Positions 4,223 to 47,330 of a stretch of 64,000 nucleotides of DNA are shown piece by piece. The notes under the pieces were generated by a model. That model made no database searches. It had not been told where the DNA came from and worked only from the letters and a program-made list of their open reading frames with translations. How positions within the stretch are numbered: position 1 is the stretch's first letter; the number at the start of each line of letters is the position of its first letter. The stretch spans positions 15,537,977-15,601,976 of the forward strand of contig OW203989.1 in NCBI GenBank assembly GCA_934047225.1, read 5' to 3'. Both the position numbers and the translations under genes were made by a program. The stretch comes from Ypsolopha sequella. Its lineage: Eukaryota; Arthropoda; Insecta; Lepidoptera; Ypsolophidae.

Positions 4223-5828
4223 ATTTACATTTTCCAAGGATAATATATACCTATATATCTATGTAGGTATGAAAATATCGAATTTACATATTCCAAAGTT
4301 CAATGGCGCAAAGTTATTGTCACTTTGCATTTCTAATTCAATTTCCCAATTCATTACAAGCAACAGTGCGTCTTATAATCGTCATATATTTATATATGTC
4401 TATAGAAATTGCTGTTAAAAAGGGTGCAAATAAAGTAACTATTAGTAAGTAATTAGTTGAAAACTTGTGATAACGTTTATCAATGCAATGTACTGCAAAT
4501 TAGCAATTCATTTAAATCTGACTGATTAAAAATTAATGAAATTAATTATATTTAATCCTTCAGTTGTCCTCATCACAATAATAGAAGTACCTATATATTT
4601 TTATATTTAAAAATCTTTTGTGCTTAATTTCGCTCAGGCCCAACACCGATTTAAACCTAAAGCGGAAAAACTATCGTTTCAAATTTCAAATTTTGTTTTT
4701 TTTTTGTTTTGGACCGCAACACCTTATGGTTAAGTTATATTATAAGATTAATACATAAAATATACAGTAAATAAAGCCAATAATAGTTGTCCACCAGTGA
4801 TACAATGAATAGAGTGGCGTTTCAACTATTTCTGGTGACAGTTCAGTTTAAAGATGTGAGCAGGATAAACTATGTAAAATGAAAGCATTGGAGCAGGATT
4901 GACCTCTCTGAATACCGTGGCCTTAATGTTATATTAAAAAAATGTATGAAACAAATATGTGATAAACTCTACAAAATAACTATACTATACTTAATTAGTA
5001 TTTTAAAATTTTAGTGATAAATTTAACCAAATAGATATAAAAACATGATTGCATATAAAATTTTTCACATAGGTATTTATGAACGCAGAACAGTGTGTGG
5101 CTCCAGGTTACCTTTATTATCACCCGGCAAAGACTCGCACTGAACCGCTATTTCAGACAGATGCTAATCAAATTGGCAGTAATTGAATCAAGTCAGGCAG
5201 ATATGCATCATCCTGAATCCTATCTAGATAATACACGGACGAATGGTTACCTGGCTGGTAGCAACCGTGATTTGGACTTTAATTGCTATTATTATTGACC
5301 AATGAGTCTTTGTGTCATCGAAAATTTTCTTTAATTTTCCTGAGGTTCCAATGTATACGCAATATATTTATTAAATTTAAACAATCTACTCTATGTTTTA
5401 GTTAAATTCTGATAGAGAACAGAAAGATCTTTCAACATTTTTGTTGTATTTATCACAAGTGAAGAAAATCCAAATGGAATGTGACCCTTATCTCGTTGGG
5501 ATCACATTTCGATCTTTCTCTCCATAAATCATACTAATGTATCCTTTCATCACGCCATCTATCTTCTTTTCATATTATACCTTATTTTCAACCGATTACC
5601 ACTTCATGCTCCTTCCTTTTTGTGTCTTTCTTACTTAGAAGAGTTAAATTGATGGATAGATAGTATAAAAGCATTAAAAAGGTTACGACTGCACGAATTT
5701 AAGCAATGCTTGGCAAGGTCTGTCCTTGAATATGTTGGTGTATCACTTATAGCTGGGTCTCTATGTGCCTTGAAAAGTACATAATGCCGTTAAAGACACA
5801 GTCCCTGCTATCGAAAGTTACTTGCAAC
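4223..5828. other. Unassigned AT-rich sequence
   Basis: No gene, RNA or clear repeat was recognised in these 1.6 kb. A 67-codon open frame at 5095-5298 lacks any motif and is treated as chance. Confidence 0.35.
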
Positions 5829-5830
5829 TA

Positions 5831-7342
5831 CACTGGTGGACATAAAAATCGACTCAAGCATTGTTGTTCTACATTTAAGGAAATAACCCAATCATACAAA
5901 CATAAACATAATGAAATATATATATCATTTTAAAGGTATAGGCCTCCACCTTTGATTAAATGCATTTTTGTCTTAAAGTATTTGCTATACAGGCTGTAAT
6001 TTTTTTTCAAGTGATGTATTACAAAATATTGAAATAATCAAATAGCGAAAAATTAAAAAAAAACCTTCTTTTACAAAATCATTAATTTATTCATTAAGTT
6101 TAACATTAGTACTTCGTGTTCCCCCCTCTAGCCCTTATAAATGCTTGCAGCCGGTTCTTCATTGACCTAATAAGTTTTTTGACTGCTGTCTGTGGAATGG
6201 CATCCCATTCTTCCATCATCGCAATCTTCAAGTCACTGAGTGACGCAGAGCTGGATTCCGCTTTCTTACTCTTATCTTAACCTCATCCCACATGTGCTCA
6301 ATGGGATTAAGGTCGGGGCTTCGCGCTGGCCAGTCCAATGTGGGTATCCCCACCTCGGTTAGATATTGCCGCACCGTTGCAGCAACATGTGGCCTCGCAT
6401 TATCGTGCATTAACACGAAGCTATCGCCGACAAATCCTGCATAGGGCACGACCGTAGGCAACGGTTTCAGTGATGCAGCACTGCGCATAGCGTTCCCCAG
6501 GCCTCCTGTAGACCCGTGCTCTCCCGTCGTTGCAATGCAAGCACATTCGGGACTCGTCAGAGAACAAAATGGAGCGCCATTGGTCCAAGGTCCAGTTTAC
6601 GTGTTCTCGGGCAAATTGAAGTCGCGCTTGCCGATGAGCTGTGGTCAGTTGGGACCCGGTTGCTGGTCTTTTTGGTGTCAGGTTAGCTTTCTTTAGTCTT
6701 CTAGCGATCGTTCGCCGACTTACAGCCCGATCTCGTACTTGTCTGAGTTCTTGTTGGATCTCAACTGCGGTCATGTGACGATTTCTTAAAGAACTTGAAA
6801 CGATGAAGCGGTCATCTTGCTCAGAAGTGCATCTTGTTCTGCCAGATCCTGGCCTCCAAATGACGCCGCCGGTCTCCACGAAGCGCCTGAAGACTCTGGA
6901 GACAGCTGATTGGCTTAGGTGTAATTCTGCAGCCACGCTTCGTTGGTTCCGCCCCAATCGCAATAGGGTAAGCACTTGAGTGGCCTCTAATGGCGTGGTG
7001 TCCATTTTCGGATGACGTAATCACTGGGTAATTAGGGTAGGTGTTAACAGGTTGAAATTGTGTAAGCAAGTGAGGAAAAAAAATTATTGCACGTCCTTTT
7101 AACGGGATAAAGGGACCTTAACGCGTACGTATCTGTATACGAGGTAAAAACTGTTCAAATACGGTAAATGAATTTCACGTCCTGTATAGCGAATACTTTT
7201 GAACCAAAATTAATTTATTCAAAGGTGGAGGCCTATACCTTTAAAATTATATATATATTTCATATGTTTATGTTTGTATGATTGGGTTATTCCCTTGAAT
7301 GTAGGACAACAATGCTTGAGTCGATTTTTATGTCCACCAGTG
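5831..7342 (-). mobile_element. Tc1-like DNA transposon, 1512 bp, full length with long TIRs
   Basis: The element starts CACTGGTGGACATAAAAATC and ends with its reverse complement. It is flanked on both sides by TA (5829-5830 and 7343-7344), the target duplication expected for Tc1/mariner. The inverted repeats are about 169 bp (5831-6000 and 7174-7342), longer than in classical Tc1, with few mismatches in the outer ~125 bp. A broken transposase lies between them on the minus strand. The copy is structurally complete but cannot move itself; it could still be mobilised in trans. Confidence 0.93.
6106..7005 (-). pseudogene. Tc1-family DD34E transposase, inactivated
   Basis: Read from 7005 downwards. 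A helix-turn-helix segment (SVAAELHLSQSAVSRVFRRF) is followed by a second DNA-binding part and the first catalytic Asp in LFSDESR. The second Asp is in MHDNARPH and the Glu in DLNPIEH; 34 residues separate them, the Tc1 signature. The gene is broken twice. Between ...GERYAQC (about 6500) and VVPYAGF (about 6440) an expected catalytic-core stretch of some 50 residues is missing and the frame changes. Near 6250 the frame shifts again, apparently by loss of one base. The original C-terminus continues as ...MMEEWDAIPQ... and ends in ARGGNTKY with a stop at 6106-6108. The start at 7005 (MDTTPLEATQ) gives the expected N-terminus. Family membership is certain; it cannot be functional as read. Confidence 0.93.
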
Positions 7343-8238: not shown

Positions 8239-8242
8239 ACCT

Positions 8243-11200
8243 TGTGACAGATCGGACCTCATCTGTTCACGTCTCAATTCACAAATAAATGTTCTTATAA
8301 TGGACAGGAAGATTGTTGTATGTAATCAATTAAATCACGTTTAAATAAATAAAGCAAATTGAAATCGATCGCGTCAAATTACTGATTTAAATAATAAATA
8401 CAGTAAACTAAACCTCCGGCCAAGCAATCGGACCAATATTAAATAGATTAAAAACAAACTTTCAATTTCAAACATGATGGTTTCCATTCATGCGTGAACC
8501 CTAGCAAGCTGTAAGTTATTACAATGTAGACGAGACGGCGGCATTGGCAGTTGCTGTATACACATCTCACTCGCTCTTATATCTGTTATCATTTTGTCTC
8601 TTTTGGTCGATTTCTTGCTGGCGTCAGGAGGACTGCGAGGATTTCGTAACTAAATGGATCTTGTGACTATATGCATTAGGTTGATTCCAATAAGGAGCGA
8701 ACGCAGCGAACGAAGCGAACGCAGCGAACGAAGCGAACGCATCGAACGGAACGAACGGAACGGAGTATATAAGGTCATGGAGAAGCGGATTGGGGATCAG
8801 ATATTTTTATACCATCGTCGAAGTGCTGTCAAGAAGTCTCAAGGTGAAGTCCCAAGTTCAGAGTATTGTTACGGGGTGGGTTTTCTTTGCTTCAATAGTA
8901 ATTTTGTTTTCGGAACTTGCGATTAAAATACGGAATGTGTCAATCTATCTGTTCGTTTGATCACGGGGTCATTTCGCGTTCGCGTTAGCTTTTAGGTGGC
9001 TGTATGCCCTTTTATCGTAAATAGATTCGGTTATGGTCAATAGTTTTTGACTTTTCCGACTCGGAGATTGACACAGACGCGTTTGAATTCGTATAGGGTG
9101 AACGAGGAACGAGCTAGATTCCGCGATGTGTAAAGGGTTCGATAATCGTCTTTTCAAGTTCCGAAATTAAAGTACGTACTTAAATAATGTAGTAGTGCAT
9201 AGGTCGATTCAGGGGTTGATGGGGAGGGCAGGGAGTATGGTCTCTTCTTAGTATTGCCGGACGTGGAAACGGGAAGATGTACCAGGGTGACAATGTGGCA
9301 TAGGGCTAGTCGCTGGGATATCTTGAAGAGTCAGGCAGGGAGCTTACAGAGCGGATGTCGCACTGGGCTAAAGCTCGGGTCACCTACTGGTGTGAACGAC
9401 AGAGCCTAGTTTTAACCTCCTCTGGAGGGAAGCAAGCGTCTGGGATGGCCTTGCGCCAGTTTTACATACTGGAAACACATCCCCCATGAAAGGCGATGTT
9501 TATGGCAAAGTGTCCGTGCCGTGAAGAGGTTGCGATTTGTTCTAACCTTTGTCATCTGACTGAGCTGGTCATGGTCTCATATCTATATATTTATATATAC
9601 ACATGATCATATAGGATATCCCAGCCAGCGGGGTGAAGTCCTTTTTACTGTATCACCTCCTGTCTGAGTAGGGCAAAGTTTTAGGGTGTTAGGCACACAC
9701 AGGGGTTCCAACTTGCCCCGCGTCTTTCTGTCGATTAGTTGAGGGGTTGTATGGTGTTTGCTAGCACAATATACAACCACACACACGTTTAATTGTAAAT
9801 GTGAGGTGACGGACCTCTAGCCTTGAAATCCACACATTTGAAAGCCTAGGAATACTTGATTTTAGGGCCAAATGTTAGGCAGGTAAATTCTAAAATAAAG
9901 TCTACTGTTAGGGTATTAATAACTTATTTTTGAGAAATTATACATAGTGGGAGGTATCAGGTAACCTTCATCATTGTTTAGGAAAAATAGGTCAGTAAAT
10001 TTAGGTTGGTTTAGGTTATAAGGTTCCAAGTACATAGGGATCTCTGAAACTTACATTTTAGTGGTTCAGGAATAAGTGTCGTTTGTTGACTAGTTTCATT
10101 ATTTATTTAAGATGGTTTTATAAACCCACAGAACCCTAATTTTTAATACTAAAGCATAAGGCTTTGATATTGGCAGTAAATATGAAATGATATCAGTATT
10201 AGAAAACATTTGAGTTTCACCACCTAAGGATCTCTAAATATGATGTACTTACTTAGGTATTTCTTTAAGAAATAAGGAGGCTTGAGGTTGGCACAAGAAT
10301 ATGCCTAAATAATAGAGGGAGCATAAATAAGTCTTGATTTTGAATTTAGGTTGATTCTGGACTATAAAAGGTCATAACTGTAGTACCTACCAAACCCTTC
10401 TTAAGGTCAGTTCTTAGTGAAACTAAGTTGAAATAATTTTAATTTATATTTATCAAGAAATATGAGCCTTTTAAGAATCAAATCAAATAATCTGATTGTA
10501 AGAGTCCAAAAATAGAGTGCAGTGACATGACAGCATTGTTTTGCTAGTACTTACTACCCAGAAGAAAGTTCTTAGGTGAAATAAGCAATGGCTTTGATTT
10601 TAATACCCATTTGACTGTTAAATTATTTACTTACTGTGGAAATAGCTCTGGGAGATTTTATTCAAGAAATAAGAATAATTTCAATCTTTATCAATATTCA
10701 ATAAACTTAAAATACAAATGATGTATTTGTTTGCATAAAAGTTTTCCATTGTCTGGCAAACAAGGCCTTAACTATTACTATACACCAAATATGGGGTAGT
10801 AAAAGTTGTATCTTCGTCATTGGAAATAAATAAATACATCTATGGAACAAAAACTAAGTTCTATTAGTATTATTATTACCACTTTACCTAGAGCAGGTTT
10901 CTCAATCAAAAGTACTTACTTATATTGAAATTATTCCATTCAGTAGTTATAAAATGGACTACATAAATGGCTGTGATTTGTGAAGGATTGAAAGGAATTC
11001 TTACCCATCATTTACAATTATATAAAGATAAAACTACTAGTATAAAGTAGCTAGTTGCCTATTAAATTCATTTATATAAAGTAATTTATATTGGCTAATT
11101 TTCATGTAAGGGGTTCATTAAATGAAACCTATGTACACATGAATGAAGGTACGGTAATTAGGTAACTGGTATTGATTCTGGTAATGGTATAAAAAGATGT

Positions 11201-12129
11201 CCAAATGATGAATTGTGTCTTTGGTATGATTAAGACACGTGCTGATGGATTCAACATCTTTTCTAATTTATTTTTAGTAAATTATCTTTATAATATTTTA
11301 TAAAACATGTACCTTAATTCAAAGAACAAAGTTTCATTTAAAACAAACAACCGTCTAACTTTGATACTATGGTTTTGTTCGTACTATATTAGGAACTTTA
11401 CATCTCTAGTTTGGAAAGCCAATATTAATTACTGTACATTATATTTGCTGAGAAATGCCTAAATGAGATTAAATAAAACACCAGTTATTCTAAAATATAT
11501 TCAACCAAATATTTTTCATAAATTACAGCTGTTAATTCCTCAGCTAAAGATCACTCTTTAGCTATCTAACTTTCTCAAGACACTAAAAGTTAATAGTGCT
11601 AGGGACTAAAATTGTTTCTGAGAGCAATCATATATTGTACTTAAAAGACAGACAGATAAACACTCTTTATTTGGATTCATGCTCATAAGTTCTGAAGTTT
11701 GAACTCTTAAATTAGTCTTTCAGTATAATGTGGACTACGGATGAGAGCACAGCTCTTAAATATTATTTCAAGTTAATGTTTATTCATTCAATAAAGTGAA
11801 GTCTCCTGGCTAGAGCACAGCTCTTAAATTGCTTCAAGTTAACGTTTGTTTATGATTGATAATAGGTAGTTATTATTAAACAGAATAGGCCTTTTAATAA
11901 GTTTTTTTTCTAACTTCATCTCTGAATCACTCTTAAAGAATCTAGGTTACTACTTAAGGCACGACGTAAGGTTCTACTCTGACGATCACACTTTGGCCAT
12001 ATATCTGTTAAAATCATTTCTATTAAGCATCAAACGTTAAGCTATGTAGGTTGTAAGTGGTTTGTTATTGGGAGGATTCGACGGAGTTCAGTGTGAGCAG
12101 TAGTGGTTTTTACAGGAGGTGTTAGTACA
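8243..12129 (+). repeat. 5' LTR, 3887 bp
   Basis: It matches 18988-22901 almost base for base. Differences seen by eye are near 10322 (c/g), 10938 (c/t), 11065 (a/t) and 11088 (a/g), plus a 27-bp gap at about 11533. It is several times longer than ordinary insect LTRs. The promoter lies about 520 bp in, so most of its length must be R and U5, transcribed leader rather than promoter. Open frames at 8654-8926 and 8969-9157 are by-products: the first is a translation of the 9-bp repeat (SERSERSER) and has no domain. Confidence 0.93.
8697..8772 (+). promoter_or_regulatory. LTR promoter: 9-bp repeat array plus TATA box
   Basis: About seven copies of a 9-bp unit, GCGAACGCA alternating with GCGAACGAA and decaying to CGAACGGAA, run from 8697 to about 8763. 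TATATAA follows at 8766-8772 with only a few bases between. By the usual TATA spacing, transcription would start near 8795-8800. The same array and TATA are at 19442-19517 in the 3' LTR. The array looks like repeated sites for a sequence-specific factor; which factor is unknown. Confidence 0.7.
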
Positions 12130-12132
12130 ATT

Positions 12133-12150
12133 TGGTGCCGTGACCAGGAT
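12133..12150 (+). other. Primer-binding site for tRNA-His
   Basis: TGGTGCCGTGACCAGGAT lies three bases after the 5' LTR. Its reverse complement, ATCCTGGTCACGGCACCA, reads as the 3' end of animal tRNA-His (T-arm, acceptor stem ending GTCACGGCA, plus CCA). All 18 positions fit the tRNA sequence as I know it. This marks the start of minus-strand DNA synthesis and fixes the element's plus orientation. Confidence 0.85.
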
Positions 12151-15100
12151 AGGTATTTTGGGCTTATTTTAAGTAATTTGGTGCTTTTAGAAATGGTTTG
12201 ATACAGTAATGTCACCCAGTTTTGGGTACAATTTGTTGCTCGTGTAAATAGGAGAAGTGATTTAGAGATTTACTACTTTTTTAGGTAAATATGTTTAGTT
12301 ATAGGTAGTACATAGTGTATTGTAAATTTAGTGCTATGGGTAAATACAAAATAAACTTTAAACATTCACTTCTTTGGTAGAATAAAGTTGACTCTCGAGG
12401 GTTGAATTGATTGCATCATTTGTCTTGAACTTAGGGGGAAGTGCTGCCATGCAGTTTCCTTCTTGTTGGAGTTTACTTTAGAAAGAGCCTGGCACTCGTC
12501 TCTGTGAGCCGTTGTGTGGTGTTTATGGCATTTACAGTAGATGGTAACAGATCACTTTTACACGAGAGTGTGGGGAGATTTTGTCCAATATGTAGGTAGC
12601 GATCCAACTCTGTACACTCTTTTTGAAATTATGTAGTAGTTTTCCTTGAGGTTGATACCTGTAAATCAAAAGGTTTATGAAATTTTTGAGAATAAAGGTA
12701 CCTCAAGAAATCTTGTATTTGTAAGAACATAATTCAATAATATTAACGCTAGCTCTTGGAAACAGTGTCTATCGAAAAGCTTTGGTTTCGTGTATTGATT
12801 AAATATCACGGACGTGATGGAAATTTATTAATTTCTAAGTAGAATCTTACTCGAAGTGTTTACATTTGGAAAACATTATGTACATACCTTTCTTGTGGGA
12901 AATCTTGCGTACGAATTACAGTATTTAGATACGCCCATGAATCACCTTGGTTAATTTTGCTTTTTAGCCTATTAGTCTTGTTTCCTTGTAATTAATTGTA
13001 GTCGTCTTGTAAAAAGTAGTTTGAACTTTTAAAGGTAGAATTCGTTCGTTCGTCACACACCATCGAAATAATTATAAATATTTAAAAAGATTAAAGAGCT
13101 AAATGAATGACAAGTGATAACCAAGCAGGAATGTAAAAATTACAGAACGTAATTTATAATTCATAGACAAATATTTGAGAACGTAACCTGAAAGCTGTAT
13201 TCCGTTTTGTTGACAATGTTCATTGAATACCGGGTTTGCAGTTGCTCTGAGTTGGAATAATAAATAGTAGGTATATAAATAGTATATATTATATGTTTAG
13301 TATATATAGTATATGAATAGTTTATTGTGAGAATAACAAAAACGGATAAATTAATTAATTTGATTTGCATTATGTCAGTTTATTTAAATTATGAGAGGGT
13401 TAATGATCGTGTCGCCTAACTTTAAATTAATTTCAAATGTTTGATTGTTTAGACAGATAGCGTTTAAAGTAGTGGCTAGTAAGCGTACTAGAAGATCGTA
13501 ATGCTTAAAAGGAATGGGGGAAGTAAGAAAATTACGGGAGTAAAGTTTAATCAGTGTGTAGGAACACCCTTTGTAACATTGTACACTGTGTTGATGTGTC
13601 ACATAGGGTTTTGTAAATTTATTTGTCATTTTCTTAGTTTTTAGATAGAGAAACAAAATAAGAAGATACAGTACCTATCCGTTTCATGTGTGTGATGCTG
13701 CAAAACCTAGTACATACAATAAAACCGACCTGTTTTATGCGCTTGTCTCGTTTGCGCTACTGTTGAAACTCGCCGCTTTATCTCTGTCTTTCGGTGGTGT
13801 TTGATCAAGCAACAAGTTCGATTTTCAGTTGACGATTTATGAATGTGTAGCATCTTTCCTCTTTATGTCGATAGTTGTAGTATGGAGCTGAGTTTTTTAT
13901 TAATAATTAGTAAGGTATCTACAGTTGTTTATTCACGTTTATTTTCCATTAAATACTAGCAGTACCATCTGGTGCATAAACTATCGGGTCGTCAGAAATT
14001 AGGTTACCTTCTTATTGACGAACAAGCGTAACGAGGAGTTACTGAATTAGATTGATAGATGGCGATAGTTCAGTCTGGTAATAATGCGGTCGTACAATAA
14101 GTTTCATGACGAGGTTAAAATGTTTCAAATTCTTTTTTAGCAAATTTTTGTATTAATTTGTTCTTATTACTACAGATTTATGTTAGCTTTGCAAGTAAAG
14201 TCATTTCGAGATTTGCTACTTGCCAAACAGTTAAGTTTAAACAAACTATTGACTTTATTTATGGTTTCATTTATGTTGAAATAAATTACATAATATTCAA
14301 GTATATTTACTTTACTTTAATATTTAGAAAAAATTTATGACGGGAGATAATAGGGGGGGGGGGGGGGAGGGTGACTGTCAAATGTCGGATTTCAATATAA
14401 CAAGAGAATTTTATTTATGATGGAAGTTATTTATTTACACTACATATCTTATCTTATCTGTTGATTTAGAATTCTGGATAAACCATGGTGAGAACCACAT
14501 GGAATTTAGTTCAGTAGGTATCTAGTGCAAATGTTGATGTGTGAGTTACAAATAGACAACGTGTAAAATATAGACGACGCTATCTATAATTGATTGGAAA
14601 TTAATTGTACGTAATATACATATTAGTGTGTGATATGTCTATATAATGTATTTATATGTTTTATGATTAATTATCGATTCGCATTTGGCAGGGTTCCGTG
14701 CGCGAGGTTTAGATGTATTGTCTTGCTTTGTAAGCATAGACCGCCTCCTTCTTTAGGCAGTTTTGGTGATCCTTAGTGAAAACATAAGTAGATGCATGGG
14801 TTTCTGACCATTGGTTCTCAAACTTAAGGTTGACAGTTACGTGGGTAAATAAACTGAAGCTTTTTTATTTTAATAATTGTTTTCTTTTTGGTTATCCTGA
14901 AGGTAAATATGGATGTGTTGTCTGACATATGTACTGTATGAGTGTATTGTGTGTTTAAGAATGGGTAGCCAGTTGTGTAGTTTTTCATAACATGTTTTGA
15001 AAAGGAGTTACAATTAATATTATGTCAGTACCAAACAAACAATTATGGAAAATAGTATTTATTTTAGTTAGTTAAGAATGGGGGAAGGTTAAATATAGCA

Positions 15101-15684
15101 GGTTTAGTAGTAAAAAAAATATTTAAATTTAATTAATGTACTATTGATGTGATCATACACACAGTAAATACCTAGCTATAATGTTTGGACTTTGGATTTT
15201 ACAAATAATAGATACGGGATGAAGAATGAATTGGTAATGGGTACTTAATAGAATCAGGGTTCTGTATGTAAAGTCTCATTTTCAATTAGAGGGTCCAGTA
15301 TGAAAAGTAATAAGTGATTATAAATCAAATAAGAATCTAAAGTGTAAATTTAGAATGGGAATAAGCTATTAGTAGAAAATTGGGCGTCAACCGATTAAGA
15401 GGTTTTGCTGATTTATTGATGGTCCAAAATAATGATTTCTGATAAAAATTGAAAAAAATATAATGTTAGGTGAGATATGTAAGTACGTTGTTTCAAATAG
15501 AAAATAAATAATACTGTCAAAACTTTATTTTATTAAGGGGAAGTAATCTTTCATACGAAAAAGAGAGAGGAGTAAGTTATTAGTATGACAAGGGATGTGT
15601 TAGTAGTAGTATAGAAAAGGTTATTGATCGCGTGTTAGTGTATTTATAGTTTTGGACTAGAACTTCAGGGTGGTGTATTCAAAT

Positions 15685-15752
15685 GCATTGTGGCAGAGTG
15701 GTTGAATGTTCACATAGGAAGTCGGAAGCCGGGAGTTCGAGAATCTGATGAC
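15685..15752 (+). other. tRNA-like segment inside the LARD
   Basis: The sequence tggcagagtggttgaatg resembles a tRNA D-arm/A box, and gggagttcgagaatct a T-arm/B box, spaced roughly as in a tRNA. Acceptor-stem pairing is poor and I see no good anticodon loop. It is therefore a tRNA relic, a SINE head or a tRNA-like structure of the element rather than a functional tRNA gene. Confidence 0.4.
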
Positions 15753-16879
15753 GTTTACGTATTCCGAATTAATCTTTTGTGTTTTATACTGTCTTCTTAT
15801 TCGTAAAGGTTGTTTTATTTATGTAGATGTTATGTTAGTAATAAGTTATTCCTTATTTATGTTTGGTACCTATAATAGCTTTTATTTTACGTTTAATTTC
15901 ACAAGTGGATGAATGCATGACGTCAATATTTATTTACTAAGTTTGAGCTGTACATGCAACCAGTGTCTATGTACTATTAAACTTTTATAAGGCTGAGGGT
16001 CCAATTAAATTATATCTATCTTGTAAACGAAATATAACTGAACAACCTACATTTTAGATTAAGTACATAGCTAGAACTAAGCGGTTGCACAATTTAAAGG
16101 TTTAGTCAATGAAAGTAGGGTTTCCTGATGATATCTACTGAAATCAATAGATTGCTATTTTAAAACAATTATTACTGCTGTTAGTAAAGACTAGAATAAC
16201 TTAAAAATATTCTAAATTATTTAGCAATTGTCTGGTTATAATTAGTAGGGGTGTCAATATTAATTCTAGTATTATACTATTTTTGTTTACTTACAGGGAA
16301 AGAATACCTTCGGTTTTTGATATTAGACAGGATTTAATAATTAAATGAAAAAAAAACTGTTAATGACTTTCATTGGTAGTTAGATTTTTACTTTAAGGAA
16401 TTAAATAAAATCTATTAAATTACAAAAAAGGTCTTGTATTATTTAATGAAATATTTAAGAACAAATGGAGAAGGAAGTAGACAGTACGCCACTGATGAAG
16501 TTTTATATTTTACAGGTAGATGAGGAAGAACTTACTTATTAAGTACAAAGGAAAGTAAGATTGGGGAGAAGTAGAGAAGAAAATTAAAAATTGACGAAAT
16601 TTAATATGTTGACTGTGTAAATACTTTGTCAATTGATAGTAAATTAAATAAAAATAAAAAAAAATAAAGTACAAGATCGTATTTTACTAAATGAATTTAT
16701 TAAGAAGAAATTAAATGTAAAAATATTCGGAAGGTTATTAAAAGCAGTTTATTACAATTTCTCGTTGTCTTATTGAAATAAAAAAAAAAAAAAGAATTAA
16801 ATTATAAAAATTAATTTGGGTTTTATTTTAGTTAGTGGTAGTTAGTTATGTTATAAGTTAGTTTATAAGTTAGCTCAAA

Positions 16880-17655
16880 AGGTATTAGCTTAAGAGGTAT
16901 TAAAGGATGATAGTTTTAAATGAGAGGTACTTAAATCATTTAGATTTGTCCATATTTGTTGAGCTGGTGGTTCGTTAGAGAAAGTGTTAGAGAGAATGAG
17001 GAAGGAAGTATGTTGTCGGTGGAAGATATAAAAAGATACGACCATGACAATTAACTTTGTCTTTGGCAAAGAAAAGGGCTCTAGCGAGACAACAGTTTCG
17101 GGAATGTGGACTCATGTTTATTGTTGTGTTATCCTGGAGACATTACACTACACAACAAACTATTTAGTTGAAAAGGAGTTAGGTTAGAGTCACCTTGACT
17201 AATCAGCAGTATAAACTGCGATTCTAAATAGTTTCACTACACACGCAGCTAATGCATATTTCCTCGGCAACTATACATTCTCCGAATGGTTGATTAGAAT
17301 TTAACATTGGAAGAGATTCTGGACTGGAGAATTAGTTATTTGGGTGCTTATCTTGAGAGCTATTAAAGTGATCTCGATTCAAGAAAGAGACACAAAGGCG
17401 CATCTATTGTTCAAATTGAAAGAAATAGAATTTGGCTTGAAGGTCATTGTGTTACCACTAGGGTAGAGTTAATTCACAACTAACTTCTTTGAAGGATTGA
17501 GATCTCCTTGTTTGATGGATATTTATTTGTAATTAATAAACCTATAGATTAGAATTTCAACTGATTTAATTTTTGATTAACCGTTTGGTATAAAAATTAC
17601 ACCACACATATTCATTCTGGGAGGAACATGATAATAAATACCGAATTTATTTAGA
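16880..17655 (+). repeat. Internal direct repeat A (~775 bp)
   Basis: It is matched in order by 18120-18895, with about 1.24 kb between starts. Shared blocks include gagctggtgg/gggctggtgg, ggagttaggttagagtca, acacgcagctaatgc, tacattctccgaat and gataataaata near the end. The similarity is clear but imperfect, so this duplication is older than the LTRs' last common copy. Confidence 0.75.
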
Positions 17656-17660
17656 TATGG

Positions 17661-18074
17661 TTATTCTTTATGTAATTGTGAATGGGCATATTTGCCAATG
17701 TTGACAATTGGCGTATATGACAGTTTATGTGTCTAGCACTCTGCGTAATTAACTTTGTGTAGATATGCACTCAGGAATAAAAGCGTAGTTGAAAATCAGC
17801 GAATGCTTGCATTTTTGCGTTTAAAAGGGCTTTGCGTATATTTAAAATAAGTTATATTTTATTTTTGTTATTCTTTATGTAATTGTGAATAGGCATATTT
17901 GCCAATGTTGAAAATTGGCGTATATGACACTTTATGTGTCTAGCACTTTGCGTAATTAACTTTGTATAGATATGCATTCATGAATATAAGCATAGTTGAA
18001 AATCAGCGAATGCTTGCATTTTGGCGTTTAAAAGGGCTTTGTGTACATTTAAAATAAGTTATACTTTAAGTTAG
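17661..18074 (+). repeat. Two tandem ~207-bp repeats
   Basis: Unit 1 is 17661-17867 and unit 2 is 17868 to about 18074. They are nearly identical (ttattctttatgtaattgtg, tttgccaatgttga, aatcagcgaatgcttgcatt). They sit exactly between the larger direct repeats A and B, giving the order A-t-t-B just upstream of the polypurine tract. Confidence 0.85.
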
Positions 18075-18119
18075 TTTTAAAAGGTATATAAAGGTAATGT
18101 TAAAAAGGTAAAAAAGGTT

Positions 18120-18895
18120 AAGGAGGTATTAAAAGGTAATGGTGGTATTTAAAAGATAGTCATGTTAAATGGAGGTAATTAAAATTAAATAGGTTCATAT
18201 TTGTAGGGCTGGTGGCTTGTTAGGGAAATTGTAAGAGCGGACGAGGAAGTCAGAGTGTGTTGGTGGAAGGAATGGAATGAAACGACTCTGACATATGACT
18301 ATGACGTTGACAACAAAAAGGGCCCTAACAAGACAACAGTTCGAAGGTGTGGACTTAAATTTATTGTCATCATATCCTGGAGACTATATACTTCACATAA
18401 ACTTTTAAGTTGAATTGGTGTTAGGTTAGAGTCATAAAGACTAAAAGACAGTATATACTGTGATACTTAAAGGTTTAACTCTACACGCAGCTAATGCTAT
18501 CTTCGGCAACAATATACATTCTCCGAATAGTTGGTTAGAATTTAATGCTGGGAGAGATTCCGAGCTGAACTATTGCTCATTTGGGTATCTGGATGGATAG
18601 CTATTAAAGTGATCTTGGTTTATGAAAGAGGCGCAAAGGTGTGTCTACTTAAATTGAAAAAATAGAATTTGGCTAGAAAATCTTTGCGGTGTCACTAGGA
18701 CAAGGTCGTCTCACAAACGATCTCTCTGGGAATTTCAGATCTCCTTGTTTGAAGGACGGATTATTCGTGAACAATTAAGCCATGGATTGGAGTCTCGATC
18801 GGTTAAGTTTTGATTAACTACTTGGTATAAACACACACCACACGTGAACGGTCTGGGAGAAAGATGATAATAAATATTAAACTCATTTAAATTTC
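18120..18895 (+). repeat. Internal direct repeat B (~775 bp)
   Basis: Second copy of the segment at 16880-17655, ending about 80 bp before the polypurine tract. Open frames at 18735-19089 cross the LTR boundary and are not genes. Confidence 0.75.
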
Positions 18896-18976
18896 TGTAT
18901 TTTGTGTTTTGTGTGTTTGTGAATGATGGAAGAGAAAATTTCCTTCGGTTAAGGCATGCTAATCTGCGTAAATTTT

Positions 18977-18986
18977 GGGGGAAGAG
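18977..18986 (+). other. Polypurine tract
   Basis: GGGGGAAGAG, preceded by a T-run and one base before the 3' LTR. This is the expected primer for plus-strand DNA synthesis of an LTR retrotransposon. Confidence 0.85.
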
Positions 18987-18987
18987 C

Positions 18988-21900
18988 TGTGACAGATCGG
19001 ACCTCATCTGTTCACGTCTCAATTCACAAATAAATGTTCTTATAATGGACAGGAAGATTGTTGTATGTAATCAATTAAATCACGTTTAAATAAATAAAGC
19101 AAATTGAAATCGATCGCGTCAAATTACTGATTTAAATAATAAATACAGTAAACTAAACCTCCGGCCAAGCAATCGGACCAATATTAAATAGATTAAAAAC
19201 AAACTTTCAATTTCAAACATGATGGTTTCCATTCATGCGTGAACCCTAGCAAGCTGTAAGTTATTACAATGTAGACGAGACGGCGGCATTGGCAGTTGCT
19301 GTATACACATCTCACTCGCTCTTATATCTGTTATCATTTTGTCTCTTTTGGTCGATTTCTTGCTGGCGTCAGGAGGACTGCGAGGATTTCGTAACTAAAT
19401 GGATCTTGTGACTATATGCATTAGGTTGATTCCAATAAGGAGCGAACGCAGCGAACGAAGCGAACGCAGCGAACGAAGCGAACGCATCGAACGGAACGAA
19501 CGGAACGGAGTATATAAGGTCATGGAGAAGCGGATTGGGGATCAGATATTTTTATACCATCGTCGAAGTGCTGTCAAGAAGTCTCAAGGTGAAGTCCCAA
19601 GTTCAGAGTATTGTTACGGGGTGGGTTTTCTTTGCTTCAATAGTAATTTTGTTTTCGGAACTTGCGATTAAAATACGGAATGTGTCAATCTATCTGTTCG
19701 TTTGATCACGGGGTCATTTCGCGTTCGCGTTAGCTTTTAGGTGGCTGTATGCCCTTTTATCGTAAATAGATTCGGTTATGGTCAATAGTTTTTGACTTTT
19801 CCGACTCGGAGATTGACACAGACGCGTTTGAATTCGTATAGGGTGAACGAGGAACGAGCTAGATTCCGCGATGTGTAAAGGGTTCGATAATCGTCTTTTC
19901 AAGTTCCGAAATTAAAGTACGTACTTAAATAATGTAGTAGTGCATAGGTCGATTCAGGGGTTGATGGGGAGGGCAGGGAGTATGGTCTCTTCTTAGTATT
20001 GCCGGACGTGGAAACGGGAAGATGTACCAGGGTGACAATGTGGCATAGGGCTAGTCGCTGGGATATCTTGAAGAGTCAGGCAGGGAGCTTACAGAGCGGA
20101 TGTCGCACTGGGCTAAAGCTCGGGTCACCTACTGGTGTGAACGACAGAGCCTAGTTTTAACCTCCTCTGGAGGGAAGCAAGCGTCTGGGATGGCCTTGCG
20201 CCAGTTTTACATACTGGAAACACATCCCCCATGAAAGGCGATGTTTATGGCAAAGTGTCCGTGCCGTGAAGAGGTTGCGATTTGTTCTAACCTTTGTCAT
20301 CTGACTGAGCTGGTCATGGTCTCATATCTATATATTTATATATACACATGATCATATAGGATATCCCAGCCAGCGGGGTGAAGTCCTTTTTACTGTATCA
20401 CCTCCTGTCTGAGTAGGGCAAAGTTTTAGGGTGTTAGGCACACACAGGGGTTCCAACTTGCCCCGCGTCTTTCTGTCGATTAGTTGAGGGGTTGTATGGT
20501 GTTTGCTAGCACAATATACAACCACACACACGTTTAATTGTAAATGTGAGGTGACGGACCTCTAGCCTTGAAATCCACACATTTGAAAGCCTAGGAATAC
20601 TTGATTTTAGGGCCAAATGTTAGGCAGGTAAATTCTAAAATAAAGTCTACTGTTAGGGTATTAATAACTTATTTTTGAGAAATTATACATAGTGGGAGGT
20701 ATCAGGTAACCTTCATCATTGTTTAGGAAAAATAGGTCAGTAAATTTAGGTTGGTTTAGGTTATAAGGTTCCAAGTACATAGGGATCTCTGAAACTTACA
20801 TTTTAGTGGTTCAGGAATAAGTGTCGTTTGTTGACTAGTTTCATTATTTATTTAAGATGGTTTTATAAACCCACAGAACCCTAATTTTTAATACTAAAGC
20901 ATAAGGCTTTGATATTGGCAGTAAATATGAAATGATATCAGTATTAGAAAACATTTGAGTTTCACCACCTAAGGATCTCTAAATATGATGTACTTACTTA
21001 GGTATTTCTTTAAGAAATAAGGAGGCTTGAGGTTGGCACAAGAATATGCCTAAATAATAGAGGGAGGATAAATAAGTCTTGATTTTGAATTTAGGTTGAT
21101 TCTGGACTATAAAAGGTCATAACTGTAGTACCTACCAAACCCTTCTTAAGGTCAGTTCTTAGTGAAACTAAGTTGAAATAATTTTAATTTATATTTATCA
21201 AGAAATATGAGCCTTTTAAGAATCAAATCAAATAATCTGATTGTAAGAGTCCAAAAATAGAGTGCAGTGACATGACAGCATTGTTTTGCTAGTACTTACT
21301 ACCCAGAAGAAAGTTCTTAGGTGAAATAAGCAATGGCTTTGATTTTAATACCCATTTGACTGTTAAATTATTTACTTACTGTGGAAATAGCTCTGGGAGA
21401 TTTTATTCAAGAAATAAGAATAATTTCAATCTTTATCAATATTCAATAAACTTAAAATACAAATGATGTATTTGTTTGCATAAAAGTTTTCCATTGTCTG
21501 GCAAACAAGGCCTTAACTATTACTATACACCAAATATGGGGTAGTAAAAGTTGTATCTTCGTCATTGGAAATAAATAAATACATCTATGGAACAAAAACT
21601 AAGTTCTATTAGTATTATTATTACCACTTTACCTAGAGCAGGTTTCTCAATCAAAAGTACTTACTTATATTGAAATTATTCTATTCAGTAGTTATAAAAT
21701 GGACTACATAAATGGCTGTGATTTGTGAAGGATTGAAAGGAATTCTTACCCATCATTTACAATTATATAAAGATAAAACTACTAGTATAAAGTAGCTAGT
21801 TGCCTTTTAAATTCATTTATATAAAGTAGTTTATATTGGCTAATTTTCATGTAAGGGGTTCATTAAATGAAACCTATGTACACATGAATGAAGGTACGGT

Positions 21901-22901
21901 AATTAGGTAACTGGTATTGATTCTGGTAATGGTATAAAAAGATGTCCAAATGATGAATTGTGTCTTTGGTATGATTAAGACACGTGCTGATGGATTCAAC
22001 ATCTTTTCTAATTTATTTTTAGTAAATTATCTTTATAATATTTTATAAAACATGTACCTTAATTCAAAGAACAAAGTTTCATTTAAAACAAACAACCGTC
22101 TAACTTTGATACTATGGTTTTGTTCGTACTATATTAGGAACTTTACATCTCTAGTTTGGAAAGCCAATATTAATTACTGTACATTATATTTGCTGAGAAA
22201 TGCCTAAATGAGATTAAATAAAACACCAGTTATTCTAAAATATATTCAACCAAATATTTTTCATAAATTACAGCTGTTATGTCACCTCAAAGTTCTTTTA
22301 ACTTTAATTCCTCAGCTAAAGATCACTCTTTAGCTATCTAACTTTCTCAAGACACTAAAAGTTAATAGTGCTAGGGACTAAAATTGTTTCTGAGAGCAAT
22401 CATATATTGTACTTAAAAGACAGACAGATAAACACTCTTTATTTGGATTCATGCTCATAAGTTCTGAAGTTTGAACTCTTAAATTAGTCTTTCAGTATAA
22501 TGTGGACTACGGATGAGAGCACAGCTCTTAAATATTATTTCAAGTTAATGTTTATTCATTCAATAAAGTGAAGTCTCCTGGCTAGAGCACAGCTCTTAAA
22601 TTGCTTCAAGTTAACGTTTGTTTATGATTGATAATAGGTAGTTATTATTAAACAGAATAGGCCTTTTAATAAGTTTTTTTTCTAACTTCATCTCTGAATC
22701 ACTCTTAAAGAATCTAGGTTACTACTTAAGGCACGACGTAAGGTTCTACTCTGACGATCACACTTTGGCCATATATCTGTTAAAATCATTTCTATTAAGC
22801 ATCAAACGTTAAGCTATGTAGGTTGTAAGTGGTTTGTTATTGGGAGGATTCGACGGAGTTCAGTGTGAGCAGTAGTGGTTTTTACAGGAGGTGTTAGTAC
22901 A
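18988..22901 (+). repeat. 3' LTR, 3914 bp
   Basis: It matches the 5' LTR apart from about four substitutions and 27 extra bases at 22280-22306. The extra segment starts and ends in TTA-type sequence, so the difference could be a microhomology-mediated deletion in the 5' copy or a short duplication here. Its promoter array (19442-19508) and TATATAA (19511-19517) are intact, so it could transcribe outward into the flank at 22.9 kb. Confidence 0.93.
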
Positions 22902-23094
22902 ACCTGTGTCATCCATCATCGTCTGGGCCTTCCTTTTTTATTAGTTTTATTTCTGTATGTAATATTTACGAGATTATAGTATGCTAATGCACACAATACT
23001 AAAGCCACTGCACTGTCAAAGTCGTCCATTCCGGATAACGATCGAGAACGCAAGTGAAAAGTCGCATTGAGTGTGAATACCTTCTCGGTTCTCG

Positions 23095-28179: not shown

Positions 28180-29160
28180 AACTTTTAACAAAAAAATAGC
28201 AACCGACTTCAATAGTCTTCTAGATAACATAATGTTTCAGGAAGAAAGAAGTCGGCAAAAGTGTTGCTTCGGTACCATCGGTCTTTATAGAATTATTATT
28301 AACTTTTTAGTGAATGACTGCTGTTACTATTGAAGTCGGTTGCTATTTTTTTGTTAAAAGTTTATTTTATTTCACATTTTTTAGTGTTGCTGGGTTAAAT
28401 TGTGAAGTATGGGTAGTTCTTGCAAACGTGGTGTTAATATGAAACGAAGTTCAAGTGAGTATAAGTAGCCATGTTTGAGTAGCTTCCTGCTATCAGCACC
28501 CTAACACAACATGATTACCGTAATCTCGAGTTATGTGCTGTCATCCGTTGAAGAGTTCTACGGTGATGAAGCCAAGATCGAAATTCAGGTGGGTACACTG
28601 GCAATTTTCAGCAATGCCCTGCAATGAGCACCCTAACACAAACTGGTTGCCGCAATCTAAAGTTATGTGCTGTCATCCGTTGAGGAGTTCTATGGTGATG
28701 AAGCCAGGATCGAAGGTCAGGTGGGTATTCTGATAATCTCCAAGTAATACCCTTGAATCAGCACCCTAACGCAGTGATTGCCGCAATCTCGAGTTATGTG
28801 CTCTGATCCGTTGAAGAGTTCTATGGTGAATATGTTGATGAAGCCAAGATCGAAGGTCAGGTGGAAGAATGTCGATTTTCAAGTAATACCTTGTAATCAG
28901 CACCCAAGTACATAGCGATTGCCTCAGTTTTGAGAGATATGCTGTCATTTTCTGAGGAGTTCCACTGCCTATCTCTGAAGACCTTCATCAGATCATGACC
29001 AAACCCAAAATGGGACCTACCTGGAAGTATACTCTTTCAAACAAAAAAAGAATTGTTCAAATCGGTTGGGAAATGACGGAGTTATGGAGTAACAACGCCA
29101 AAAAAAAAAAAAAAATACAGTCGAATTGAGAACCGCCTCCTTTTTGAAGTCGGTTAAAAA
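28180..29160. mobile_element. Composite element with ccgacttcaa termini, ~980 bp
   Basis: The left end carries a hairpin: 28180-28214 (aacaaaaaaatagcaaccga) is inverted at 28327-28363. The right end reads gaagtcggttaaaaa. The terminal words ccgacttcaa and ttgaagtcgg are therefore inverted across the whole unit. The 3' part (aaatgggacctacctgg, cataactccgtc reversed, aaccgcctcctttttgaagt) is a sequence I know to be widespread in Lepidoptera. It encloses the tandem repeats at 28492-28985. Confidence 0.6.
28492..28985 (+). repeat. Four tandem ~133-bp repeats
   Basis: Units start at 28492, 28624, 28757 and 28896, each with atcagcaccctaac..., gttatgtgctgtcatccgtt and gatgaagccaagatcgaa themes. The last unit is the most diverged. 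They lie inside the composite element and inflate short open frames at 28533-28733 and 28766-28948. Confidence 0.8.
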
Positions 29161-35402: not shown

Positions 35403-35643
35403 TCTAAAAAGGCCGCTTTGGATGAATCATTTTATGATTCCGTTCTAATGCCGTCTCTTTTGCACGTGTGAAAAAACTCTGCCTCCATCCTATTTTCAAA
35501 TCATTTTATGATTCACCCAAGTCGGCCTTTTTAGATCCCCTGATCTGTGTACTGTGCTACGATCGAGATAGCCGACCAGTTCCAGCAGATTCAGACTGCC
35601 TTCATCTGGGCGAGTGAAGATCGGCTATCCCGATCATAGTACA
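35403..35643. repeat. Two adjacent hairpins
   Basis: Hairpin 1 pairs 35403-35440 (tctaaaaaggccgctttgga, with tcattttatgattc) with 35498-35536. Hairpin 2 pairs 35548-35575 (tgtgctacgatcgagatagc) with 35621-35643. Both have short loops and look like small MITEs, one beside the other. Confidence 0.6.
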
Positions 35644-35716
35644 TATTGTGGTGAGCGGCTTTATTTAAATCCTGAATTATAAAGAAATATATACTATACA
35701 CTTACACATAATGTAT

Positions 35717-36121
35717 AAGACGCCTGCACGGCGATTTTGGCGTGTGCGAAAAATTGCGAAAGCAGGAAAATCAATAATTTAAGTAGAAAATCCTGTGTAA
35801 AATCACCCGATGCAAATTTTTTCACCCTTGCCAGAATCGCCGTTTTGCGCCCGTTGCATAAGGTTTAATCGCGCGCGACGCAACTTAGTTGAATCACAAG
35901 GGCGAGGAGCCTAACACGATGTTTTTGCGATTAAACAGTATGTTACGCTCCTCGCACTTGCGGCGCACGTATTAAACATTATGCTACGGGCGCTGGACGG
36001 CTATTCTGGCAAGTGTGAAAAATTGGAAAAGCAGAAAAATCGATCATTTCCGTAGAAAATCCCTTGTAAAATCACCCGATGGAATTTTTTTCGCACTTGC
36101 CAGTATCGCCGTACAAGACTT
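35717..36121. mobile_element. 405-bp palindrome containing two 114-bp hairpins
   Basis: 35729-35842 and 35998-36111 are direct copies of one 114-bp unit. Each unit is itself an inverted repeat (cggcgattctggcaagtg-type ends). The middle also pairs (gcgcccgttgcataaggttt against its inverse ending at about 35993), and the outermost bases pair too. The whole is a hairpin made of hairpins, richer in CpG than its surroundings. Confidence 0.75.
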
Positions 36122-36474
36122 TATTAGTAACATTTAATTTTGTAGTCAATTTGTAGTGGCAATTTTAATTGAGAATACAAACACATAGAGCATACAAGAA
36201 ACAGACATGAACTAGATAATTTATTCCGGCACTTAGAGTAGCAAAAAGTTTCCCTCGTTAGCTAAGAGACAACTGCTGTAAATCACGGCCGAACTTGAGT
36301 CCTATCTCAGATCGCTATCTACAAATTAAGTAGAGGGTAGAACAGCAAATTGGTATAGGCCGTGGATGCTTTTGGCGGGCAAAATCTAACTTTAGCTACA
36401 TTCTTATCAAGAAAGAGATTAAGCGGGATAACATGCTACGTTTGGTAGAAAGCTGTAACCTGTATACAATAATG
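36122..36474. other. Unassigned sequence
   Basis: No gene or repeat was recognised. Confidence 0.35.
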
Positions 36475-40328: not shown

Positions 40329-40965
40329 TTTCTCTGTTTATGAGTTAATAATTATTATTTCTTCAGTCGTCGACTGATGACGGCCCCCAAATATATCGAG
40401 CAAAAAGTACTTTATTGTTTTAATATTAATAAGGAAACGAAAGAAATAAATAAAGCTTAAGAAAGCACAATGTACATTTATTAACCTAATAATAATTTCA
40501 TTAAAAGGGTATTAAGAGCAAAAGGTGGATCAGCGGCAACGGCTTCGTTGGTATCCGCCTACTATAGTCATAGTACTATGTTCTACGCTATTCCTTATTT
40601 AGATCTGTCGAGTCCTCATTGTCGGATATCGCGTCACATCTCAGTGTCGTCACACAACCAGTAGCCATTAGTTCTATCGATCCATTAGCTCTCGCAAGCT
40701 CTAAGAGCCGTTACATCGTGAGGTAACTTTCGATTCTACTGGAAGTAGCCTAGTTTCTAACTTAATTTATTGTCATTGAAAAGTTCTTATGTAAATCGCT
40801 TGAATGTCTCGTGTATAGGTATGTAAAAATAGATTTGTCTAAAGCTACGGTTACCAGTTAACAGATGCAGAAAAAGCACTGAGCTCTTAATTAATATCTA
40901 TATACATTTTATATAAATGAATAACTTGACTGACTGATCTATCAACGCAGACCAAACGTGTTGTA
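40329..40965. other. Unassigned sequence leading into the minisatellite
   Basis: 40920-40965 (cttgactgactgatctatca) is the start of a dispersed lepidopteran repeat I recognise, in which the minisatellite is embedded. The rest shows nothing. Confidence 0.4.
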
Positions 40966-46564: not shown

Positions 46565-46690
46565 ATCAATCAATCAATCAATGAACATTTTATTGCACAG
46601 AAAATTCAAATAAAAACACAGTGAACAGGATAACACAGAAGGCAAGGCGGACTTATTCCTTAAAGAAATTTCTTCCAGTCAACCGAATAT
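46565..46690 (-). mobile_element. LINE 3' end with (CAAT)n tail
   Basis: Homologous to 958-1110: on the minus strand it runs from gactggaagaaatttcttta through gcaataaaatg to a simple-repeat tail. Two copies with different tails (TTA and ATTG repeats) point to one retroposon family. Confidence 0.6.
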
Positions 46691-46969
46691 ACTTAAATAC
46701 TTAATTAGTTGCATAATAATCTTAATTAAAATAATATAAGAAAATTCAGTGAAATATATTTCGAACTCTATCCTGGTCACGGATTGTGATTGATGCCGAA
46801 TCCAGGGCAGGGGTCGAAACTTGTTTTAACATAATTTTATTTAGTATATTGTACGTTATTTATTGAACAACCATTAAAGACGAGGAAATTATTTAATCAT
46901 ACTTATATTAATACTTTTGGTGGGTTTTAATTTACAGTTGCATACTGAGGTCAATCAAAAGATTAACAC

Positions 46970-47114
46970 TAAACACAACTTAACTAATTTGACAGAACTA
47001 ACCTTATTCTAAGCGTTCTGTCTTTGTCTTTTCGATACGGAAAGAAAAAGACAGAAGGCTCAGATTAAGTTTAGTTCTATGAAATAAGTTAAGTCGTGTT
47101 GCACCGAATCGACA
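46970..47114. mobile_element. Hairpin MITE family M1, copy 2
   Basis: A near-complete inverted repeat, from aaacacaacttaactaattt to aagttaagtcgtgttgcacc, with the turn at tcgatacggaaagaaaaaga. See also 37697-37800 and 60763-60900. Confidence 0.7.
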
Positions 47115-47144
47115 CAATTAGGATTAAAAGAATATATGTCAGCT

Positions 47145-47270
47145 CGATATTGTAAAATCCGATAGTTTATAACTGCACTAGGTTAGGTTAGATAAACAAC
47201 TGTAAAACAATCTATCGTTAAATTATAATTTCACTTGTCAAACTATAAACTACCGGATTTTACAATCTTA
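47145..47270. mobile_element. Small hairpin MITE
   Basis: tattgtaaaatccgatagtt at 47148 is mirrored by actaccggattttacaatct at 47249, with a ~70-bp loop. Confidence 0.65.
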
Positions 47271-47330
47271 CGGTGACAAAGTAGTAATTTTGTAACAAGT
47301 AATTTGAACAAGTAATAAGTAATAAAAAAC

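Follow-up and report, generated by a model that had tools for sequence, protein, structure and literature searches.

How can a retrotransposon that carries no protein of its own go on inserting into a genome? The question is raised by a 64 000-nucleotide stretch of the genome of the lepidopteran Ypsolopha sequella (assembly GCA_934047225.1, contig OW203989.1, positions 15,537,977–15,601,976 of the forward strand; hereafter the window), in which a 14.66 kb long terminal repeat (LTR) retrotransposon copy at 8243–22901 is flanked on both sides by acct. Both LTRs start with TGTGACAG and end with GTTAGTACA, and they differ from each other by four mismatches (two transitions and two transversions) and one 27 bp indel. 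An initial annotation made from the window alone had described LTRs of 3887 and 3914 bp, an acct target duplication, a primer-binding site (PBS), a polypurine tract (PPT), a TATA promoter and a non-coding interior of 6.86 kb, all of which were borne out by alignment and six-frame Pfam scans. The element very probably belongs to a protein-free LTR retrotransposon lineage of the large retrotransposon derivative (LARD) kind, which is young and multi-copy and has kept an RNA fold on its sense strand.

Relatives of the element were located with a pattern consisting of the LTR end plus the PBS, which was found at 23 genomic sites (control, 0). Eleven of these were window-like (including the window copy and copy C12a), five belonged to a sister subfamily, three to a distant family and four were unrelated. 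Of the 1.5 kb of LTR examined in the sister subfamily, alignment was confined to roughly the final 250 bp (84–86% identity); at the other end of subfamily copy L061, LTR stretches 1–261 and 563–1442 aligned at 90–92%, and its interior was 83–91% identical to that of the window element. The single frame of at least 110 amino acids in 8 kb of L061 was 119 amino acids long and was located in the LTR. One copy of the distant family (family 3; L058 and L062) contained no frame longer than 95 amino acids in 8 kb. Its interior aligned mainly from interior position ∼3860 onwards (73–74%), together with the first 136 bp of the interior (70%) and an LTR patch (68%), and its end, TGTGCCGGATCGGAC, was similar to the window end, TGTGACAGATCGGAC. 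The sister subfamily and the distant family are non-coding where they were read.

The 3′ interior of the window element contains two copies (A and B) of a module of ∼715 nt, lying within an 800 bp duplication whose copies are 72.5% identical. The distant family has one module, 82% identical to A and 74% to B, and in genomic copy C6b a lone A/B hybrid module lies between two identical LTRs. A joint fold of 13 aligned module sequences gave 186 pairs, 23 of which had changed on both sides with pairing kept; one stem, for example, is formed by AAACTATTTAG/CTAAATAGTTT in A, while B has AAACTTTTAAG/CTTAAAGGTTT and the distant family AAACTATTAAG/CTTAGTAGTTT. For A, B and the distant family together, the joint energy was −167 compared with −86 ± 6.5 in 120 column shuffles, and 26 pairs were doubly changed compared with 13.0 ± 3.2.

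As a fold derived from an alignment favours itself, and as inverted repeats elsewhere in the window exceeded the modules in a scan of single-sequence folds, a cross-prediction test was used, in which the fold was predicted from one sequence alone and broken pairs were counted in another against 2000 permutations. In the sense orientation all six comparisons among A, B and the distant family gave fewer broken pairs than any permutation; in the antisense orientation 271, 12, 1423, 1163, 257 and 1011 of the 2000 permutations did as well. An excess of double changes was present in the sense comparisons A/B (12/2000), B/A (0/2000) and B to the distant family (15/2000) and was absent from the other three (409, 687 and 187 of 2000). 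The effect was bounded. The stretch just upstream of the module, 72% identical between the window and the distant family, gave no fold effect (1322 and 1013 of 2000); in the sense orientation neither of two mid-interior stretches was depleted of broken pairs, although double changes were more frequent in one of them in one direction (43/2000); and the LTR patch was suggestive in one direction (17/2000; 243/2000 in the other). In a comparison of the window element with the sister subfamily over 16 segments, two segments around the module region reached 5% on either strand (29/1000 sense at 5614–6301 and 4/1000 antisense at 5264–5963), as did one elsewhere (24/1000 antisense at 1871–2545). The module sits in the least diverged part of this comparison (94–97% identity; 84–93% further 5′, up to ∼4560), and the window and subfamily modules are too alike for the fold test. 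Judged by these sequence comparisons, the sense-strand fold of the module appears to have been kept through compensatory change and to be protected by selection.

Several observations count against this conclusion. There are only three independent module lineages, and A and the distant family folded jointly by themselves gave no excess of double changes (5 compared with 5.5). Antisense joint folding also beat the shuffles (z = −5.0), with 20 double changes compared with 12.0 (2 of 120 shuffles reached 20), and the column shuffles did not preserve dinucleotides. One of the six antisense cross-predictions was itself low in broken pairs (the 12/2000 above). In a 720 nt fold scan of the plus strand the z-scores of the modules (−2.8 and −4.5) were modest and were surpassed by those of inverted repeats at other places in the window. 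Few low windows were found in a 150 nt scan, because the module fold is long-range.

A rival explanation is that the module originated as a structured RNA of the host that was captured by the element, a passenger and not a mobilization signal. A compact, structured sequence that is common to diverged families would fit such an origin. It is nevertheless unlikely: no Rfam family matches the module (no match at gathering score in the window, and none of relevance at E values up to 5 over 8243–19000), the element seems to make use of it, given that it has outlasted the divergence of the families, and the best 40 scored genomic matches of the module (which has the 17-mer AGCTATTAAAGTGATCT) are 97–100% identical, as expected of element copies. 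A 40-base module pattern was absent from viral and prokaryote contigs, which is uninformative on its distribution among insects.

Genomic copies were sought in the host assembly (866.8 Mb) with the 5′-most 758 bp of the LTR as the query. The best 40 of 381 first-look candidates were 94–100% identical to the query, two of them being the window's own LTRs. Sixteen other regions, picked from the top of the list and for paired hits rather than at random, were read: six had two LTRs, two had one LTR plus interior (C4 and C1) and eight had a single LTR without interior on either side. In all six two-LTR regions the same non-coding interior lay between the LTRs. Six-frame Pfam scans of the interior and the LTR (stops as X, E values up to 1) returned only DUF6724 with an E value of 0.72, far under its cut-off, and recognized no gag, pol or env in the interior. 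The longest interior ATG frames, 81 amino acids on the minus strand and 54 on the plus strand, were reached by 25% and 70%, respectively, of 200 dinucleotide shuffles. From the Pfam negative and the unexceptional frame lengths, the interior has no recognizable coding capacity.

Non-autonomous elements often arise by deletion or decay of autonomous ones, and the reading covered some of the copies only, so that the window element might be an ordinary derivative of an autonomous element with the same LTRs, its non-coding interior being incidental. This is improbable given the shared interior of the six two-LTR regions, the non-coding state of the family 2 and family 3 copies where read, an interior that is not a gag–pol remnant by Pfam, and the selected fold within it. 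What can still be aligned between the families is the priming site, a leader patch, the LTR patch, the element end and the 3′ interior. If the families have diverged down to these patches, the lineage has persisted throughout that divergence with no coding sequence. The wider proposal, offered tentatively, is that this is an old, self-perpetuating lineage of protein-free retroelement RNA, for which the ∼715 nt fold would be a selected key to the particles of other retrotransposons.

An element-encoded but unrecognized protein is very doubtful. The candidate is an LTR frame of 90–101 amino acids across copies (90 on the plus strand of the window LTR), which is open in 19 of 22 LTR pieces, the start not being found in the other three; 17% of shuffles reached 90 amino acids when both strands were counted, and only 4% on the plus strand alone. 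The frame was judged to be spurious: it begins ∼110 nt upstream of the TATA box, its C-terminal end changes frame between copies, it has no homologue, and its openness is weak evidence since the compared LTRs are closely related.

The window element is a young copy of a multi-copy, recently inserting family. Four full-length copies were read at both ends (the window copy, C18, C6b and C6c; C12a, C12b and C22 are left out of this count), and all of them are flanked by 4 bp target duplications; each of the eight solo LTRs had its own 4 bp duplication, so that the other insertions and solo LTRs which the initial annotation had proposed to look for do exist. LTR pairs differed at 4 of 3887 sites in the window copy, 3 of 3723 in C12a, 6 of 3275 in C18, 0 of 3933 in C6b, 3 of 3921 in C6c and 1 of 3578 in C12b, three of the six comparisons covering only part of the LTR. 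The mutation rate of Heliconius is near 2.9 × 10−9 per site per generation; at this rate, the age of the window copy would be of the order of 180 000 generations. The earlier description of a young insect LARD therefore agrees with an element of LARD kind in many copies, with six LTR pairs that differ at 0–6 sites. Region C22 (18027674–18063595) contains three family LTR starts with an equal spacing of 17 581 bp and, by this spacing, is a tandem LTR–interior–LTR–interior–LTR array, the first unit of which was read. Long near-identical repeats do carry a risk of misassembly and one such array exists, but an origin of the two 3.9 kb copies in misassembly or segmental duplication, which had been named as the outcome that would overturn the annotation, is hardly credible when independent copies share the same end bases and have 4 bp duplications of differing sequence (4/4 full-length copies and 8/8 solo LTRs).

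The means of movement would then lie outside the element. Mobilization in trans is inferred from the lack of coding sequence together with the recent insertions. The PBS, TGGTGCCGTGACCAGGAT, begins 3 nt past the end of the 5′ LTR and occurs exactly at 55 genomic places (reversed control, 0). A pattern for the host transfer RNA (tRNA) was found at 13 places, 11 of them exact (control, 0); the three exact places that were fetched were each identified by ARAGORN as tRNA-His(GTG) ending in GAATCCTGGTCACGGCA. This 3′ end with the added CCA is an 18 nt exact complement of the PBS. Variants of the PBS were also observed just after the 5′ LTR at L020, L022/L023, L024, L027, L016 and L035, comprising TGGTTAAGCCGTGACAAGGAT and two others.

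No protein-coding partner, and no autonomous element sharing the PBS, PPT and LTR ends as the initial annotation had anticipated, was found in a small search; the annotation's partner that may still be active is a conjecture. The four unrelated sites with the LTR end plus PBS (L053, L055, L059 and L060) are other sequences; outside the PBS stretch L053 shows little similarity, and it has no frame longer than 68 amino acids in the 1.5 kb further on. Of 37 exact PBS sites outside the list of 23, seven were sampled at +2.0–2.8 kb and six of these were Pfam-scanned in three frames, with no Pfam match and no reverse transcriptase in the stretch read. Downstream of one tRNA-His PBS, a 134-amino-acid open frame (L064:1–402) looks Gag-like by eye without support from Pfam; no Pfam match was present 1.3–2.3 kb further on, and a protein search with the fragment gave no match under a length rule that excluded full-length relatives. 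Two further repeat groups (L065/L070 and L066/L068/L069), lying 2.0–2.8 kb downstream of an exact tRNA-His PBS, are 93–95% alike within groups, have no Pfam match where scanned and are possibly more non-coding LTR families. The 16-base LTR start had seven matches in viral contigs, none of which extended beyond 19 bases and which were taken as chance, and a PBS 20-mer had none; the viral and prokaryotic collections that were searched have no bearing on distribution among insects. A literature text search for the PBS letters returned an unrelated match only.

The missing partner, the six tRNA-His sites without a Pfam match in the stretch read and the variability of the PBS (C18, C6b, C6c and C12b have TGGTTAAGCCGTGACAAGGAT, C22 and C1 other variants) all tell against mobilization in trans from a tRNA-His-primed RNA. 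C6b combines a variant PBS with identical LTRs, and the variant has therefore not stopped recent movement. By analogy with the animal Helenus elements, which have 4 bp duplications, in some cases tRNA-His, and Gypsy elements as likely partners (PMC10886601, in the parts consulted), a Gypsy-type partner is the best guess, as the window element has the same duplication length and a PBS for the same tRNA. In the proposed mechanism, RNA polymerase II would transcribe the element from the LTR TATA box, TATATAAG, with a predicted start ∼30 bp past it. The RNA would be taken up by the particles of a protein-coding LTR retrotransposon and primed by tRNA-His, and reverse transcription and integration would be carried out by the partner enzymes. 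The module may act in cis, the partner Gag or reverse transcriptase recognizing, dimerizing or stabilizing the element RNA through it. One module seems to be enough, to judge by C6b, whose LTRs are identical and whose only module is an A/B hybrid. The interior (12130–18987) is poor in C on the plus strand (C 11.4%, G 20.3%; 18.3% each in the flanks), which could be a mark of long passage through RNA.

The features of a LARD were found as follows: long TG…CA LTRs (3887 and 3914 bp), an interior of several kilobases without gag, pol or env, a PBS and a PPT adjoining the LTRs and, in the 16 regions read, multiple copies of uniform structure, solo LTRs and target duplications. Well conserved RNA structure was found for the 3′ module only, the other interior parts tested showing none. 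The 4 bp duplications and tRNA-His fit kinship with gypsy, with no coding sequence to classify by. An autonomous Gypsy or BEL/Pao element was excluded by the lack of gag–pol in Pfam scans, and a terminal-repeat retrotransposon in miniature (TRIM) of the Helenus type by the length (14.66 kb compared with less than ∼1.3 kb) and by the lack of a tRNA or Rfam match in the LTR. Retrozymes carry a hammerhead ribozyme in their LTRs; this class was excluded, as no Rfam family reached its gathering score in the window. LARDs such as Sukkula of barley, the LTR of which is reportedly near 4.4 kb, share with the window element long LTRs, kilobases of non-coding interior, priming sites, uniform copies and solo LTRs. 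The window element differs in having an insect host, a PBS that varies between copies, a gypsy link that is not proven, and a fold with compensatory changes in a bounded, duplicated module common to diverged families.

A LARD-type element in an insect is an already known kind, and the contrast drawn in the initial annotation with plants, in which LARDs are best described, was too strong. LARD terms appear in listings from genome papers on whitefly, honey bee, bumblebees, flea beetle, aphid and a stem borer moth, and in the passages seen Culex quinquefasciatus is described as having 38 non-coding LTR families for which no master copy is known (PMC3286476). The latter are likewise from an insect and lack coding sequence, but among the table rows seen they have LTRs of 208–337 bp and, where given, 5 bp duplications, and the passages seen describe tandem-repeat interiors and no conserved fold (PMC3286476). 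Helenus (TRIMp3) resembles the window element in being non-autonomous with 4 bp duplications and, in some members, tRNA-His; according to the parts seen it differs in measuring at most 1263 bp and in having a tRNA-like sequence in the LTR, none being detected in the window element (PMC10886601). The LARD entries of Drosophila melanogaster are also insect LARDs and, in the part of the source seen, are among the oldest elements, whereas the window element is young (PMC9005704). In a limited literature search, no description was found of a covarying, duplicated fold common to diverged non-coding insect LTR families, nor of any animal LARD with a covarying fold.

Table 1. Features of the LTR retrotransposon copy, as positions in the 64 kb window (plus strand unless stated).
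Feature	Position	Strand	Basis or remark
Target-site duplication acct, left copy	8239..8242	.	4 bp pattern recurs at other copies
5′ LTR, 3887 bp, TG...CA	8243..12129	+	Sequence comparison
TATA box TATATAAG, LTR position 524	8766..8773	+	Sequence
Non-coding interior, 6858 bp	12130..18987	+	Pfam scans and frame statistics
PBS TGGTGCCGTGACCAGGAT, complementary to host tRNA-His(GTG) + CCA	12133..12150	+	Sequence
Structured RNA module, copy A	16944..17660	+	Fold comparisons
Branched stem-loop of module A (closing stem AAACTATTTAG/CTAAATAGTTT)	17157..17234	+	Copy B and family 3 differ by compensatory changes
207 bp tandem repeat ×2, between modules A and B	17660..18068	+	One-base overlap with end of A
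Structured RNA module, copy B	18190..18905	+	Fold comparisons
Counterpart stem-loop of module B (closing stem AAACTTTTAAG/CTTAAAGGTTT)	18399..18476	+	Fold comparisons
PPT GGGGGAAGAGC	18977..18987	+	Adjoins 3′ LTR; same place in other copies
3′ LTR, 3914 bp	18988..22901	+	Sequence comparison
Target-site duplication acct, right copy	22902..22905	.	Flank sequence

Outside the element, the window contains a Tc1/mariner-like transposase remnant in two overlapping frames at 6228–7020 on the minus strand (HTH_Tnp_Tc3_2, E value 7 × 10−17). A 372-amino-acid open frame at 57859–58977, also on the minus strand, has no Pfam family above cut-off; its best match, from Plodia interpunctella (49% identity over 88%), is in line with a lepidopteran host, and Parnassius, beetles and others gave weaker ones. 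Tandem repeats are present at 28486–28829 (132 bp unit, 2.6 copies, 83% matches) and at 40965–43335 (35 bp unit, 67.7 copies, 92% matches, strong AT skew). Very stable folds on both strands were found at 35601–36320 and 46601–47320 (z = −7.6 to −11.0). Self-inverted matches lie close to them, as they do in palindromic repeats.

How protein-free retroelements are copied has for the most part been presumed, with little direct demonstration. Here a specific candidate signal for such a parasite is provided by a bounded, covarying module that lies beside a non-covarying control, together with young copies and diverged relatives, and the module is a definite RNA for tests of expression, folding and binding. 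The element would extend the plant-style life of a LARD, with 3.9 kb LTRs and a conserved fold, to a family recently active in an insect.

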